From Thalassolituus oleivorans MIL-1 (lineage in GTDB: Bacteria; Pseudomonadota; Gammaproteobacteria; Pseudomonadales; Oceanobacteraceae): DNA of 64,000 nt. The notes beneath the pieces were generated by a model. That model searched no databases and was not told the origin of the DNA. It saw only the letters and a list, made by a program, of their open reading frames with translations. This document shows positions 33,202 through 41,627 of the stretch, piece by piece (position 1 is the first letter of the stretch; every line of letters starts with the position of its first letter). The position numbers and the translations under genes were made by a program. The stretch covers positions 1,647,001 to 1,711,000 of the forward strand of contig NC_020888.1 in the NCBI RefSeq assembly GCF_000355675.1, read 5' to 3'.

Positions 33202-34474
33202 CACTGCTGTCCCACAGTTTAGGGATCATATAACGAGCCTCATCTGAGGCTCATTTTTGTTTGGGTCGGGAGGCGACGGATTAAGCACCTCCTCAAGCGT
33301 CTTTCGCTCAAACAGATTCATCTGAAGCACCCTTAACATCCTCAGCACTGTCCAGCCAGAGCGTGCTGCATATCGCGCGTAAGCAACCAATAGATAGACC
33401 ATCATCGCTATCCATATCTGAGTCATTACCGCATTCCGGGATCGTCCCAGAAACGTCTTAATAGACAGGCTCTGTTTGATGGCCTTAAAGAAGAGTTCAA
33501 CCTGCCAACGATCCTTATAGATCCCAGCAATGGTTTTGGCTGAGAGGTCAAAATGATTGGTTAAAAACTCATAAGTCTTGTCTGTTTCTGAGCAATGGTA
33601 GACCACTCGTCTCATCGGAGGCGCACCTCGCTTCAGCGCATGTGCGCTGCTCGGCTGTATGTCCTGATCCGCTAATACACCACTGTTTGGCTTGACCGGA
33701 TAGTCGGCATGAATCTCATAGACTGCATTGGCTCGTAGTCGGGTGACAAAGAAAATTCCTTTATCTGTCAGTGTCTTATACCACTCGTAGTCAAAGTATC
33801 CTTTATCGAAAGCAACGATGCTTCCCTTGGGAAAATCGAATTTTCGTCCTTCGATCATGTCGTTTTCATTGCCATCACTGAGTGCCACGAACTCTGGGAT
33901 CAGAGTGCCATGATTCAGGCCGACACTCAGTTTCACGTTTGCGGTGTCTTCACGGTGCGCCGCCCAAGGAAACAAATTCATGGCCAGGTCAATGGCACTG
34001 GCATCCAGTGAATAGAGCGGATTCTTGAAGCGGAATTTGTGTTTGCCAGGTGTGTTCTTACAGCGGGCAAGCAACTTTCCGAATAGCCCTTGATAAAGCT
34101 CTGCTGGCTGCTTTTCATTGAGCCGGGCGAGTGTAGACCGAGCAATGGGCTTGGCCCCAAGGTGGTAGAGCTTATGGCGTTGAGCCTCCAGGTTAGATTG
34201 GACATCCCTCAGGCTCTGTCGATCAGAAACCTGGGATATAAACATGCCAATGAACTGATCCCATCGCGTAGCAGAGCGTAGTTTCTGGCCGGAATGATGG
34301 ATTTTTGCGAGGGACTCAAATTCATGTCTCGAAACTGGTTTGAGCAACTGATGAAAAGCGGTGTTATGATGTGACAAAGCCTGATTCCTTGTTTTTTCTG
34401 GTGTGTGGTAACAACAGAATAACACTTGGAGTCAGGCTTTTTTGTTTGCTGTCCCAAACTGTGGGACAGCAGTG
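33202..34474 (-). mobile_element. Complete IS4-family insertion sequence, 1273 bp
   Basis: Perfect 19-bp terminal inverted repeats: CACTGCTGTCCCACAGTTT at 33202-33220 and its reverse complement at 34456-34474. Flanked by 10-bp direct repeats CCCAATAGGG. One intact transposase gene fills it. GAGCCTCA-TC-TGAGGCTC followed by ATTTTT (33235-33258) faces outside transcription entering from the left. TGCTGTCCCA-AACTG-TGGGACAGCA (34448-34472) is a second hairpin at the right end. Everything is intact, so the insertion appears recent and possibly still mobile. Confidence 0.93.
33226..34377 (-). CDS. IS4-family transposase
   Basis: About 383 residues from TTG 34377, where AAGGA lies ~10 bp upstream and the product begins SHHNTAFHQLLKPVSRHEFE, the usual start of this DUF4372-type subgroup; a GTG at 34425 would add 16 residues. 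DDE catalytic residues are seen in YSLDASAIDLAMN, VAFDKGYFDYEW and the C-terminal YKDRWQVELFFKAIKQSL (Y-x2-R-x3-E-x6-K signature of IS4). No frameshift or internal stop. Confidence 0.93.
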   Translation of the reverse strand: MSHHNTAFHQLLKPVSRHEFESLAKIHHSGQKLRSATRWDQFIGMFISQVSDRQSLRDVQSNLEAQRHKLYHLGAKPIARSTLARLNEKQPAELYQGLFGKLLARCKNTPGKHKFRFKNPLYSLDASAIDLAMNLFPWAAHREDTANVKLSVGLNHGTLIPEFVALSDGNENDMIEGRKFDFPKGSIVAFDKGYFDYEWYKTLTDKGIFFVTRLRANAVYEIHADYPVKPNSGVLADQDIQPSSAHALKRGAPPMRRVVYHCSETDKTYEFLTNHFDLSAKTIAGIYKDRWQVELFFKAIKQSLSIKTFLGRSRNAVMTQIWIAMMVYLLVAYARYAARSGWTVLRMLRVLQMNLFERKTLEEVLNPSPPDPNKNEPQMRLVI

Positions 34475-37116: not shown

Positions 37117-37344
37117 GTGGGATACCTGTTCTTATATATTGAACTTATTTTATGGTCAGATCTCGGTTCTTAGATCTTAGTGGCCGCGTTAGGCGGCAGA
37201 ATGGCGGTTATGCTATCACAATGGGGTTAGATCAATAACAAAGGAAGGGGTGTTTTTTAGCCAATATTCGGACAAAACATGCGATAGTTCAGCTATCCGT
37301 GTATTGTTAATACGATATTTCAATGAGGCGAAGTAGATCTCTAT

Positions 37345-38343
37345 ATGGTCGATATAAACAGCAGTGGATTTGAACTACCGCCGCAGCCATGCAAAGAAAA
37401 TGGTGATCCAAGGCGAGTGGGCTTTGAACTTGAATTTTCGGGCATCGATTTGATTCAGACTGTCGATACGGTTGAGCGCGTACTAAACGCGCATATTAGT
37501 CATAAAACCGAAGCCGAGGTTGAACTGACGAGCACCGAATTTGGCAAGTTCAATATCGAAATAGACTGGGCTTACCTCAAGTCAAAAGCCGCTAAAGAAA
37601 GTGGCCCAAATGAAGATCGTACATGGGTCGATCTACTTAGCCGTGTCGCCCCTCTGTTGGTTCCTATCGAAGTGGTTTGCCCACCTATCGCTGTTACTCG
37701 GTTAAACGAGCTATTACCAATGGTTGATGCATTGCGCGAGGCAGGTGCTGTTGGTACAGAGGAATCATTTATTTCTGCGTACGGCGTTCACGTTAATGTT
37801 GAGTTACCTGATCTAACGGCGAAGACATTAGGCACTTATATTCGAGCCTATGCGTTGTTGCAATGGTGGATAGTGGATACTCATAAAATCGACATTGCGC
37901 GGCGTATTAGCCCCTATATTGACTTGTATTCAAAAGCCTACTTAAGGCAGGTTTTATCACATCCAAACGCGGATATGGATCAAATATTTGACGACTATTT
38001 AGAGCACAATCCGAGTCGTAATCGCGGCTTAGATCTGTTGCCATTGCTAGCTACGATAGATGAAAAAAGAGTCCGAAGTGTCGTTGATGACCCACGAATT
38101 AAAGCGCGCCCAGCATTTCATTATCGTTTGCCAGATTGTCGTATTGAACATAGCGATTGGTCGTTGCTAGTGCCTTATAACTCTTGGCTAGTGGTCGAGA
38201 AACTAGCCAATATGCCAGAAGCTATTACTGAGCTATCGGCGGAATTTTTAAGTATCGAACGTCAGCGTCCACTGCTGGATATAAGTCGAACAGAATGGGT
38301 TGAGACAATAGATCAATGGCTAAAAGACCACGCGTTGGTGTAA
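37345..38343 (+). CDS. Amidoligase_2-type COOH-NH2 ligase
   Basis: 332 residues. Near the start RRVGFELEFSG (Glu 28, Glu 30) matches the metal/ATP-binding GxExE motif of the glutamine-synthetase-fold amidoligase family. ISAYGVHVNVELPDLTAKTL carries the conserved His, followed by a helical region (LQWWIVDTHKIDIARRISPYIDLYSKAYL). Such enzymes are predicted to form amide bonds in peptide tags, cell-wall peptides or metabolites. The 3' end overlaps a class I glutamine amidotransferase gene by 28 bp, giving a ligase plus ammonia or peptide-hydrolase pair. Family assignment from motifs and neighbours. Confidence 0.8.
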   Translation: MVDINSSGFELPPQPCKENGDPRRVGFELEFSGIDLIQTVDTVERVLNAHISHKTEAEVELTSTEFGKFNIEIDWAYLKSKAAKESGPNEDRTWVDLLSRVAPLLVPIEVVCPPIAVTRLNELLPMVDALREAGAVGTEESFISAYGVHVNVELPDLTAKTLGTYIRAYALLQWWIVDTHKIDIARRISPYIDLYSKAYLRQVLSHPNADMDQIFDDYLEHNPSRNRGLDLLPLLATIDEKRVRSVVDDPRIKARPAFHYRLPDCRIEHSDWSLLVPYNSWLVVEKLANMPEAITELSAEFLSIERQRPLLDISRTEWVETIDQWLKDHALV

Positions 38344-38990
38344 CCGGAAATGCACGTCGATGGGCTCCAAGTTGGTGGTGTACGTCATTCGCATTGCGGC
38401 TTATCGGTGCAACTCCTGAGCGAATTACAGTAGAGCATTCGCCGAGTGGACATCCATTAGATGCGTTAATTATTGGTGGCGGGAACGATATCGCGCCTGA
38501 ACATTATGGTGGTGATATTAATGCAAAAAGTAAAACAGATCCCGAACGCGATGCGCTAGAAATACAATGGATTAAAAAGGCACTAGATCAGGGCATTCCA
38601 TTGCTTGGTATTTGCCGTGGGGCTCAGTTAATAAATTCAGTATTGGGTGGCTCGTTATTCCAGGATATACGCGATACCCGAGTGCATACTCGGAATCGTC
38701 CTAGTTTATTACCAACTAAGCATGTCACGCTTGACCCCGAGTCTGGAATAGCAGGCATTTGCAAGCGAGGAGCGCTGTGGGTTAACAGTTTACATAGCCA
38801 AGCGGTTAATCGTCCTGGAGAAGGCTTAAAGGTAGTGGGGCGAGATCGTGATAATATTGTGCAGGCTATTGAAAGCACTACTGGTGCGCCAGTAAAAGGC
38901 GTGCAATGGCATCCCGAATATTTATTTTATCTACCGTCACAATTGGCGTTATTTCGTTGGTTGGTGTCGTGTGTGAAAGTGGGTCGATGA
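38316..38990 (+). CDS. Class I glutamine amidotransferase-like (C26 peptidase) protein
   Basis: 224 residues with a complete catalytic triad: Cys 100 in LLGICRGAQLIN, His 199 and Glu 201 in GVQWHPEYLF, and the oxyanion region LIIGGGNDIAPEHYGG. This resembles PuuD-type gamma-glutamyl hydrolases. It overlaps the amidoligase by 28 bp, so the two are probably made together. It could supply ammonia, or hydrolyse the gamma-glutamyl or isopeptide product of its partner. The extended WWCTSFALRLIGATPERI start is typical of amidoligase-linked relatives. Confidence 0.85.
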   Translation: MAKRPRVGVTGNARRWAPSWWCTSFALRLIGATPERITVEHSPSGHPLDALIIGGGNDIAPEHYGGDINAKSKTDPERDALEIQWIKKALDQGIPLLGICRGAQLINSVLGGSLFQDIRDTRVHTRNRPSLLPTKHVTLDPESGIAGICKRGALWVNSLHSQAVNRPGEGLKVVGRDRDNIVQAIESTTGAPVKGVQWHPEYLFYLPSQLALFRWLVSCVKVGR

Positions 38991-39019
38991 TTCTCTATTT
39001 CTAACGTTCGAGCATCTTT

Positions 39020-39442
39020 GTGATTTCTTATTTATTGTTATTTAGTTCCGCATTTTTAGCCGCAACTATCCTACCGTTTTACTCTGAAGTACTGCTATAT
39101 GCGCTACTGCGCGATGGTGGAGATCCGTGGATCTTGGTAGCTGTCGCAACCTTAGGCAATACGCTGGGGGCAGTTGTTAACTGGGTCCTTGGGCTTTATA
39201 TACTAAAATTTCAAAATAAGCGCTGGTTCTATTTTTCACATAAACAAATCGAAAAAGCGCAGGCATGGTTTCAACGGTATGGCGTATGGTCGCTCTTGCT
39301 AGCATGGCTGCCATTAGGTGGTGATGCGTTGACCCTGATAGCTGGCATTATGCGGGTTAAGTTTTGGCCGTTCTTGTTATTGGTAGGAATAGGAAAGGGT
39401 CTGCGCTATATATTTGTGGTGTATGTGGCGGGTTGGGTTTAA
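39020..39442 (+). CDS. YqaA/DedA-like (VTT-type) membrane protein
   Basis: 140 residues from GTG 39020; an in-frame TAA lies just upstream, so no longer form exists. Four to five hydrophobic segments. The motifs EVLLYALLRDGGDPWILVAVATLGNTLGAVVNWVLG and WLPLGGDALTLIAGIMR match YqaA proteins, small relatives of the DedA/SNARE-associated family with roles in lipid or ion transport. Lies 29 bp after the amidotransferase and in the same direction, so likely part of the cluster. A terminator follows. Confidence 0.85.
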   Translation: MISYLLLFSSAFLAATILPFYSEVLLYALLRDGGDPWILVAVATLGNTLGAVVNWVLGLYILKFQNKRWFYFSHKQIEKAQAWFQRYGVWSLLLAWLPLGGDALTLIAGIMRVKFWPFLLLVGIGKGLRYIFVVYVAGWV

Positions 39443-39519
39443 TACTCTTTGTTAAGGTAGGTTTAATTGATCAGGGTGCGAGCAAGCTAAGTAAGTTACT
39501 TTTGTTATTATTAAAAAAT

Positions 39520-39546
39520 AAAAGCACTCAATTATTGAGTGCTTTT
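39520..39546. terminator. Bidirectional terminator at the yqaA/MATE junction
   Basis: AAAAGCACTCAA and TTGAGTGCTTTT form a perfect 12-bp stem with loop TTA; T-tracts flank it on both strands. It overlaps the last codons of the convergent MATE gene. Confidence 0.85.
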
Positions 39547-41006: not shown

Positions 41007-41627
41007 ATGCCGATGTCAAATAACAGCGTTCCATTACATACCCTTCCGTTGGAGGGGGACTCTTTAGCTATTCCGCTACGCGTACTGGATGTTCAAGATT
41101 TGATTGAGTTGTTTGATGGCTTGTTTGCGCACAGTGAAAACACGCGTCTGATTGCTGGTGATAATGAGCCGGAATATTTACCTGCAAACGATGAGTGTTC
41201 ATATCATCGCCTAATTTTCGCTCATGGTTTTTACGCCTCAGCACTGCATGAAATCAGCCATTGGTGTATCGCAGGTAAACCGCGGCGCTTGTTGGTCGAT
41301 TTCGGTTATTGGTATGAACCTGATGGCCGCAGCCCGGAACGCCAGCGAGAGTTTGAACATGTAGAGGTTAAACCTCAGGCGCTTGAGTGGATTTTGTCTG
41401 AGGCTTGCGGTCGTAAGTTTTACCTTAGTACTGATAATTTGAACGGCGATCCGGTCGCGGTGGCGGCGGGTATTGCGCGTTTTCGGGCTGCGGTGGTAAA
41501 ACAGGCACAAAACTACCTTGCAAATGGCCTTCCTATGCGGGCAAGCGTATTAAAAAAGGCCCTGTTAGATTATTATCAACGACATTCACAATTTGGTGCG
41601 CACCTGTTTGCACCAGAACGAATATAG
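41007..41627 (+). CDS. epmC: Elongation factor P hydroxylase EpmC (YfcM)
   Basis: 206 residues. The HExxH iron motif lies at 81-85 in [16 protein letters not shown], followed by [34 protein letters not shown], both signatures of YfcM/EpmC, which hydroxylates the beta-lysylated lysine of EF-P. The first Met (41007) or the third residue Met (41013) could start translation. epmA, epmB and efp are not in this window. The last codons overlap the leader of a helicase ORF, whose real start is probably downstream. Confidence 0.92.

Follow-up and report, generated by a model that had tools for sequence, protein, structure and literature searches.

A portable amidoligase, amidotransferase-fold and DedA gene cassette in Thalassolituus oleivorans, a candidate system for reversible gamma-glutamylation

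We identified a compact three-gene cassette in Thalassolituus oleivorans MIL-1 which encodes an amidoligase, a class I glutamine amidotransferase (GAT)-fold protein and a small DedA/VTT membrane protein. The cassette is real and portable. The enzyme pair has reportedly been predicted before; the new and testable part is the link to a DedA gene, which recurs in four arrangements and involves two kinds of VTT protein. The cassette probably attaches glutamate to an amine, removes the glutamate again and moves something across the membrane. More specifically, we propose, with a probability of about 0.5, that this is a small cassette which moves horizontally and serves reversible gamma-glutamylation. 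In an ATP-dependent reaction, the amidoligase would couple a carboxylate, most likely the one at the gamma position of glutamate, to an organic amine; the GAT-fold protein would hydrolyse the same kind of gamma-glutamyl bond and not serve as an ammonia donor, and the DedA protein would carry the amine, the conjugate or a related lipid over the inner membrane. The identity of this cargo is speculative.

Gene Organization and Protein Families

The window, a stretch of 64,000 nucleotides of the T. oleivorans MIL-1 genome, carries the cassette as three consecutive open reading frames (Table 1). An earlier note, made from the letters of this DNA, had described an Amidoligase_2-type enzyme with a GxExE motif, overlapping by 28 bp a class I amidotransferase with an intact Cys100-His199-Glu201 triad and followed by a small DedA-like membrane protein; this description held throughout, and both profiles that it named for a search, PF12224 and PF07722, were matched above cut-off. 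In Pfam, the ligase frame matched Amidoligase_2 (PF12224; E 3e-65, 220.9 bits against a cut-off of 22) and no other family at E up to 1, the GAT frame matched Peptidase_C26 (PF07722; E 2.4e-45, 155.4 bits against a cut-off of 20.5) and also GATase (E 5.7e-14), and the DedA frame matched VTT_dom (PF09335; E 1e-16, 62 bits against a cut-off of 33.9). NCBIfam returned no family for the ligase, and the matches listed there for the GAT and DedA proteins were far under cut-off. The ligase and GAT genes share 28 nt (38316-38343). The ligase motif is G26-F-E28-L-E30, and all 65 rows of a ligase alignment keep G26, E28 and E30; likewise the GAT residues C100, H199 and E201 do not vary across an alignment of 63 rows. 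The genome (a single contig of 3,920,328 bases) holds one PF12224 match. Because the proteins are conserved in many other genomes, the three frames are not chance frames.

Table 1. Features of the cassette and its downstream flank, in window coordinates.
Feature	Position	Strand	Remarks
Amidoligase (Amidoligase_2, PF12224), predicted glutamine-synthetase-fold carboxylate-amine ligase	37345-38343	+	332 aa
Class I GAT-fold Peptidase C26 protein, probable gamma-glutamyl hydrolase	38316-38990	+	224 aa
Small DedA/VTT membrane protein, YqaA type	39020-39442	+	140 aa, GTG start
Inverted repeat with T-run on the minus strand, possible terminator	39520..39546		Pattern scan, 12-pair stem

The inverted repeat lies between the cassette and a convergent MATE gene; the pattern scan found four terminator-like sites against 2.9 expected by chance. 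The promoter scan gave a single site, inside the DedA gene, where chance alone would give 5.4. The GC content of the cassette (0.44-0.46) is like that of the left flank, and the right flank has 0.48; recent import was therefore rejected as a reading of the composition.

The Ligase and GAT Genes Form a Stable Pair

Among the best 80 of 564 confirmed relatives in named genomes, the GAT gene adjoins the ligase gene in 79 loci, and the 80th (L067) ends at a contig edge. The two genes overlap in most cases. The nearest relative in the collection scan, with 77% identity, is from a Thalassolituus metagenome-assembled genome (MAG). Within the order of the window, the ligase occurs in 74 and a GAT homologue (E 1e-25) in 72 of 293 genomes: 70 have both, four the ligase only (G006, G049, G074, and G204), two the GAT only (G094 and G132) and 217 neither, in counts uncorrected for kinship. 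The genes thus co-occur elsewhere, as the earlier note had supposed. Pairwise distances of ligase and GAT correlate at 0.85 over 38 loci, and 0 of 2000 permutations reached as high a value, although shared ancestry could account for this by itself. In one locus (L016, genome G174) the ligase is split over two overlapping frames with GAT and DedA genes intact, which represents a frameshift or a sequencing error.

PF12224 was also found in 24 of 398 genomes sampled across the phylum, 12 of them outside the order of the window. In ten of these 12 (G443 and G501, with still weaker matches, were left out) a GAT gene was adjacent in eight; the two loci without it, in G442 and G372, have the weakest PF12224 matches of the ten. 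Of the 61 genomes in the order of G578, 13 carry PF12224, 12 of them with a GAT gene nearby; G307 and G578 are counted in both this and the phylum sample. Of 11 plasmid hits seven were viewed, and annotation or ORF scans placed a GAT gene in three and none in four. Clustering of ORFs of at least 80 codons over the 80 loci gave GAT and DedA as conserved neighbours. The other clusters present in at least 15 loci, of which all but one minus-strand cluster of 18 loci were inspected singly, lie on the opposite strand, with example ORFs overlapping the cassette genes.

A DedA/VTT Gene Recurs in Several Arrangements

A DedA homologue follows the GAT gene in 37 of the 80 loci by blastp and in 38 by tblastn (one partial), while L032, L067, and L087 end before or within the expected place of this gene. 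In 33 of the 38 loci the gap between GAT and DedA is -8 to 13 nt. In 30 of the 74 ligase genomes a DedA match of about 139 bits or more lies no further than 3 kb from the ligase, and in 17 more such a match lies elsewhere in the genome; matches of at least 140 bits were found in 46 of the 74 ligase genomes versus 13 of the 219 others, again uncorrected for kinship. Ligase and DedA genes are neighbours without a GAT gene in G049 and G006, and in G098 with the GAT gene on another contig. In four of the 13 loci from the order of G578 (L161, L187, L189, and L190, all alphaproteobacterial), a different VTT protein of about 250-270 aa, which we take from its length to be TVP38-like, follows the ligase and GAT genes; the two proteins tested matched VTT_dom with E 3.9e-20 and 8.9e-24. 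These four loci belong to two genera of one family and may represent one event. In L192 a YqaA-type gene (VTT_dom, E 6e-13) sits immediately upstream and shares 7 nt with the ligase frame as called. Since these further arrangements exist, the DedA link does not reflect only one inherited gene order, and the tie of the membrane protein to the ligase is firmer than when the earlier note placed the two together.

Two side observations concern such loci. In L161, L187, L189, and L190, the ligase-GAT-VTT set adjoins a trpE-like gene, and in L161 genes for a GATase (trpG-like) and a Glycos_transf_3 protein (trpD-like) then follow, as if the set were inserted in a trp operon. On an Azospirillum plasmid (L142, 4857-7942), a ligase gene lacking a GAT partner overlaps the gene of a response regulator; next come a gene annotated as a histidine kinase and, roughly 1 kb further, a DedA gene.

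In a tree of 63 DedA proteins, E. coli YqaA and five solo copies of the Vibrio type are set apart from the operon copies. The side with the operon copies (57 rows, branch support 100/96) includes unlinked copies from some ligase-bearing genomes; long branches meet at this split and the bootstrap had not converged. Both DedA kinds are present in Vibrio pacinii (L207 and L194). On the ligase tree (78 rows, 39 with DedA), the presence of DedA takes 13 changes compared to 26.5 in shuffles, of which the well-supported branches alone force three. Over the 38 loci, distance correlations are 0.73 for GAT-DedA and 0.65 for ligase-DedA (0 of 2000 permutations as high), which common descent alone could produce.

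These data bear on the explanation that ligase and hydrolase form an amine detoxification or salvage pair, with a DedA gene that often travels along but functions independently. The ligase-GAT core is stable, while DedA is linked in 38 of 80 loci, the ligase tree implies about 13 gains or losses of it, and the ligase-DedA correlation is the lowest of the three (0.65 versus 0.85 and 0.73). Set against a passenger role are the three genomes in which DedA stands beside a ligase that has no adjacent GAT, the other VTT kind in the same position in four alphaproteobacterial loci together with the upstream copy in another, and the clade of operon copies apart from ordinary YqaA. We regard this explanation as improbable.

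Over 133 aligned columns, the window DedA protein and E. coli YqaA are 44% identical. In 38 aligned rows, with re-entrant helices placed by eye, E23 is invariant and the stretch WLPxGGDALTLIAGI contains no K or R. For the COG1238 DedA subfamily, an acidic residue is described in the first re-entrant helix and no conserved positive residue in the second (PMC10127716). That the DedA protein handles a lipid or envelope intermediate, as the earlier note suggested, is a speculative proposal by analogy with the DedA family.

Predicted Structures and the Chemistry of the Enzyme Pair

The predicted model of the ligase has the glutamine synthetase/GCS superfamily fold without the N-terminal domain of glutamine synthetase, and aligns only to the C-terminal part of that enzyme, from about residue 100. 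For the GAT model, the nearest named solved structures are the gamma-glutamyl hydrolases PuuD and SpuA, which by their entry names act on small gamma-glutamyl compounds; in these model comparisons the GAT is closer to free-standing hydrolases than to ammonia-feeding subunits. We infer the ligase and hydrolase chemistry as well as their opposition; the two proteins are best read as an opposing gamma-glutamylation pair and not as an ammonia-fed amidotransferase.

The earlier note had left two roles to the second enzyme, undoing the bond or feeding ammonia, of which the first is now favoured and the second disfavoured. Ammonia feeding would make the pair a two-subunit glutamine-dependent amidotransferase, in which the GAT protein frees ammonia and the amidoligase amidates a carboxylate of a metabolite or of the envelope, like MurT-GatD, a known ligase-glutaminase pair acting on peptidoglycan. 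The gene overlap, the near-strict pairing, the intact Cys-His-Glu triad and the wider GAT fold, which is that of ammonia-feeding subunits, would all suit such an enzyme. Still, we consider it unlikely: besides the proximity of the GAT model to PuuD and SpuA and the lack of the glutamine synthetase N-terminal domain in the ligase, ligases without an adjacent GAT gene exist in G006, G049, G074, G204, four plasmids, G442, G372, and G661, and those checked (G661 left out) retain most or all inspected residues (14 of 14 in three of the four GAT-less genomes of the order and 13 of 14 in the other). A ligase-GAT fusion was looked for and rejected, as all nine loci checked (L112-L120), with open frames of up to 603 codons (G242), have separate frames.

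The earlier note had also mentioned cell-wall and peptide-tag roles, for which nothing was found. A system that modifies proteins or peptidoglycan, with the ligase attaching glutamate or a short tag and the GAT-fold peptidase detaching it, would resemble in architecture the Rlo operon of Pseudomonas aeruginosa, which brings together an ATP-grasp protein, a peptidase and a membrane protein, and in which mutations in the ligase-like and membrane genes rescue a peptidase mutant (PMC12239564). Such a system is very improbable here, given that no tag-like, wall or protease gene recurred among the ORF clusters (at least 80 codons) of the 80 loci and that the nearest GAT structures are named for small gamma-glutamyl substrates.

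A lipid version can also be formulated, in which the target of reversible glutamylation would be a membrane lipid that bears an amine, or an amine linked to a lipid. Glutamate would be added by the ligase at the inner leaflet, the YqaA-type or TVP38-like DedA protein would flip the product and the hydrolase would reset it. We think this rather doubtful; if true, it would give the COG1238 DedA subfamily its first substrate and would represent a horizontally exchanged kind of membrane charge control.

Relation to Known Systems

Iyer, Abhiman, Burroughs and Aravind reportedly predicted Amidoligase_2 (PF12224) enzymes with GAT neighbours in 2009, and their prediction reportedly likewise had a PF12224 ligase gene beside a GAT-like thiol peptidase gene in proteobacteria. 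To that prediction the cassette may add the recurrent DedA gene, the evidence for a hydrolase-type GAT and the presence and absence among congeners. PF12224 ligases have no established substrate that we are aware of. Open-access literature yielded no account of the three-gene cassette, nor, among the papers listed, any mention of a link between amidoligases and DedA proteins. With this link present in several arrangements, each family becomes a handle on the other: a metabolomic or lipidomic search for what a soluble ligase and hydrolase produce is easier than an assay of a lone membrane protein.

PuuA/PuuD and gamma-glutamylanilide or 1-naphthylamine synthase (GoaS) systems likewise combine a glutamine-synthetase-fold ligase with a GAT-fold protein. 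PuuA and GoaS, however, are glutamine synthetase family proteins proper with the N-terminal domain, whereas the cassette ligase matches PF12224 alone and lacks that domain. These systems have catabolic oxidase or dioxygenase neighbours, where the cassette has a DedA partner and showed no such recurring cluster in 80 loci. In the aniline system, gamma-glutamylanilide synthase is paired with a GAT-like enzyme hydrolysing its product, and a similar GAT-like protein, NpaA2, is dispensable for NpaA1 function (PMC11335346).

The DedA protein shares with COG1238, which includes YqaA, the VTT domain and the identity given above, but the operon copies group apart and adjoin a ligase; the subfamily is described as having no established function or substrate, movement of neutral or positively charged lipids is proposed for it, and no mention of amidoligases was seen (PMC10127716). 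A YqaA homologue influences indium resistance (PMC8679861).

Phage amidoligase clusters (LUZ24-like phages, Arthrobacter phage Salgado) also have PF12224 near genes for gamma-glutamyl or glutamine-amide chemistry, with different partners, namely a gamma-glutamyl cyclotransferase (Salgado) and class II GATases. In Salgado (L212, 12160-14736), genes for a gamma-glutamyl cyclotransferase, a PF12224 ligase and a class II GATase stand in a row; gene 97, 'hypothetical' in the record and beside the amidoligase gene, encodes the cyclotransferase, of the GGACT type (E 2.1e-18). Taken together, the precedents of the aniline system, YqaA and Salgado point to gamma-glutamyl chemistry, although the class II GATase of Salgado would also suit ammonia supply.

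The yqaA gene of E. coli K-12 is found 72 nt upstream of gshA, a gamma-glutamyl ligase gene, on the same strand (L193, 884-2941). As a general parallel this was rejected: in the order of the window, the same-contig pairs compared by eye are far apart among the matches listed, and no GshA-like stretch was found near YqaA homologues in 18 loci of 13 genomes (about 1.5 kb either side).

The Site in the Genus and Portability of the Cassette

None of the four sampled congeners has the ligase. In three of them (G132, G178, and G199) the site is empty, with aldehyde dehydrogenase and MATE genes adjoining and 138-147 nt between the matches. The interval between these two genes, 37117-39527 in the window, is thus variable within the genus: in G104 it holds four genes (L134, 2477-8489), encoding a DUF6436 protein, an MHYT hybrid histidine kinase, an HD-domain response regulator and an HI0933-like flavoprotein, and in a Thalassolituus MAG (L032) an aldehyde dehydrogenase gene, with 86% identity, adjoins the ligase gene as in the window. 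On another contig, G132 has a full-length DedA gene and a GAT frame that is missing about 50 residues at its start, with no ligase gene, and this DedA protein is the sister of the window protein (97/91). These findings therefore indicate that the cassette was present in the genus on more than one occasion, or was lost from it. This pattern of presence and absence offers natural comparisons.

Flanking genes differ in most loci, and Desulfotignum rows (Thermodesulfobacteriota, MAGs) nest among gammaproteobacteria in the ligase tree. We conclude that the cassette is portable because of the empty sites, the mostly differing flanks and the relatives in other phyla. The aldehyde dehydrogenase was rejected as a pathway partner, as it is found in the four congeners without the ligase; an aldehyde dehydrogenase gene does, however, precede the ligase gene on one alphaproteobacterial plasmid.

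A phage or defence origin was likewise rejected. The ligase had no match in 50,697 phage records (tblastn), PHROGs holds no family for the ligase or the DedA protein, the GAT protein matches phrog_7218 (glutamine amidotransferase, E 6e-23), PADLOC has no family for any of the three proteins, and 21 pattern matches in a viral_contigs scan included no relative. Phage amidoligases are, however, present in a library of viral structures (best E 1.1e-6), so that distant phage kin do exist.

Two further genes were noted in the neighbourhood. A DDE transposase gene (DUF4372 and DDE_Tnp_1) lies on the minus strand at 33226-34425, about 3 kb from the cassette, and an EpmC family gene (EF-P hydroxylase, PF04315, E 9.1e-68) lies on the plus strand at 41007-41627.
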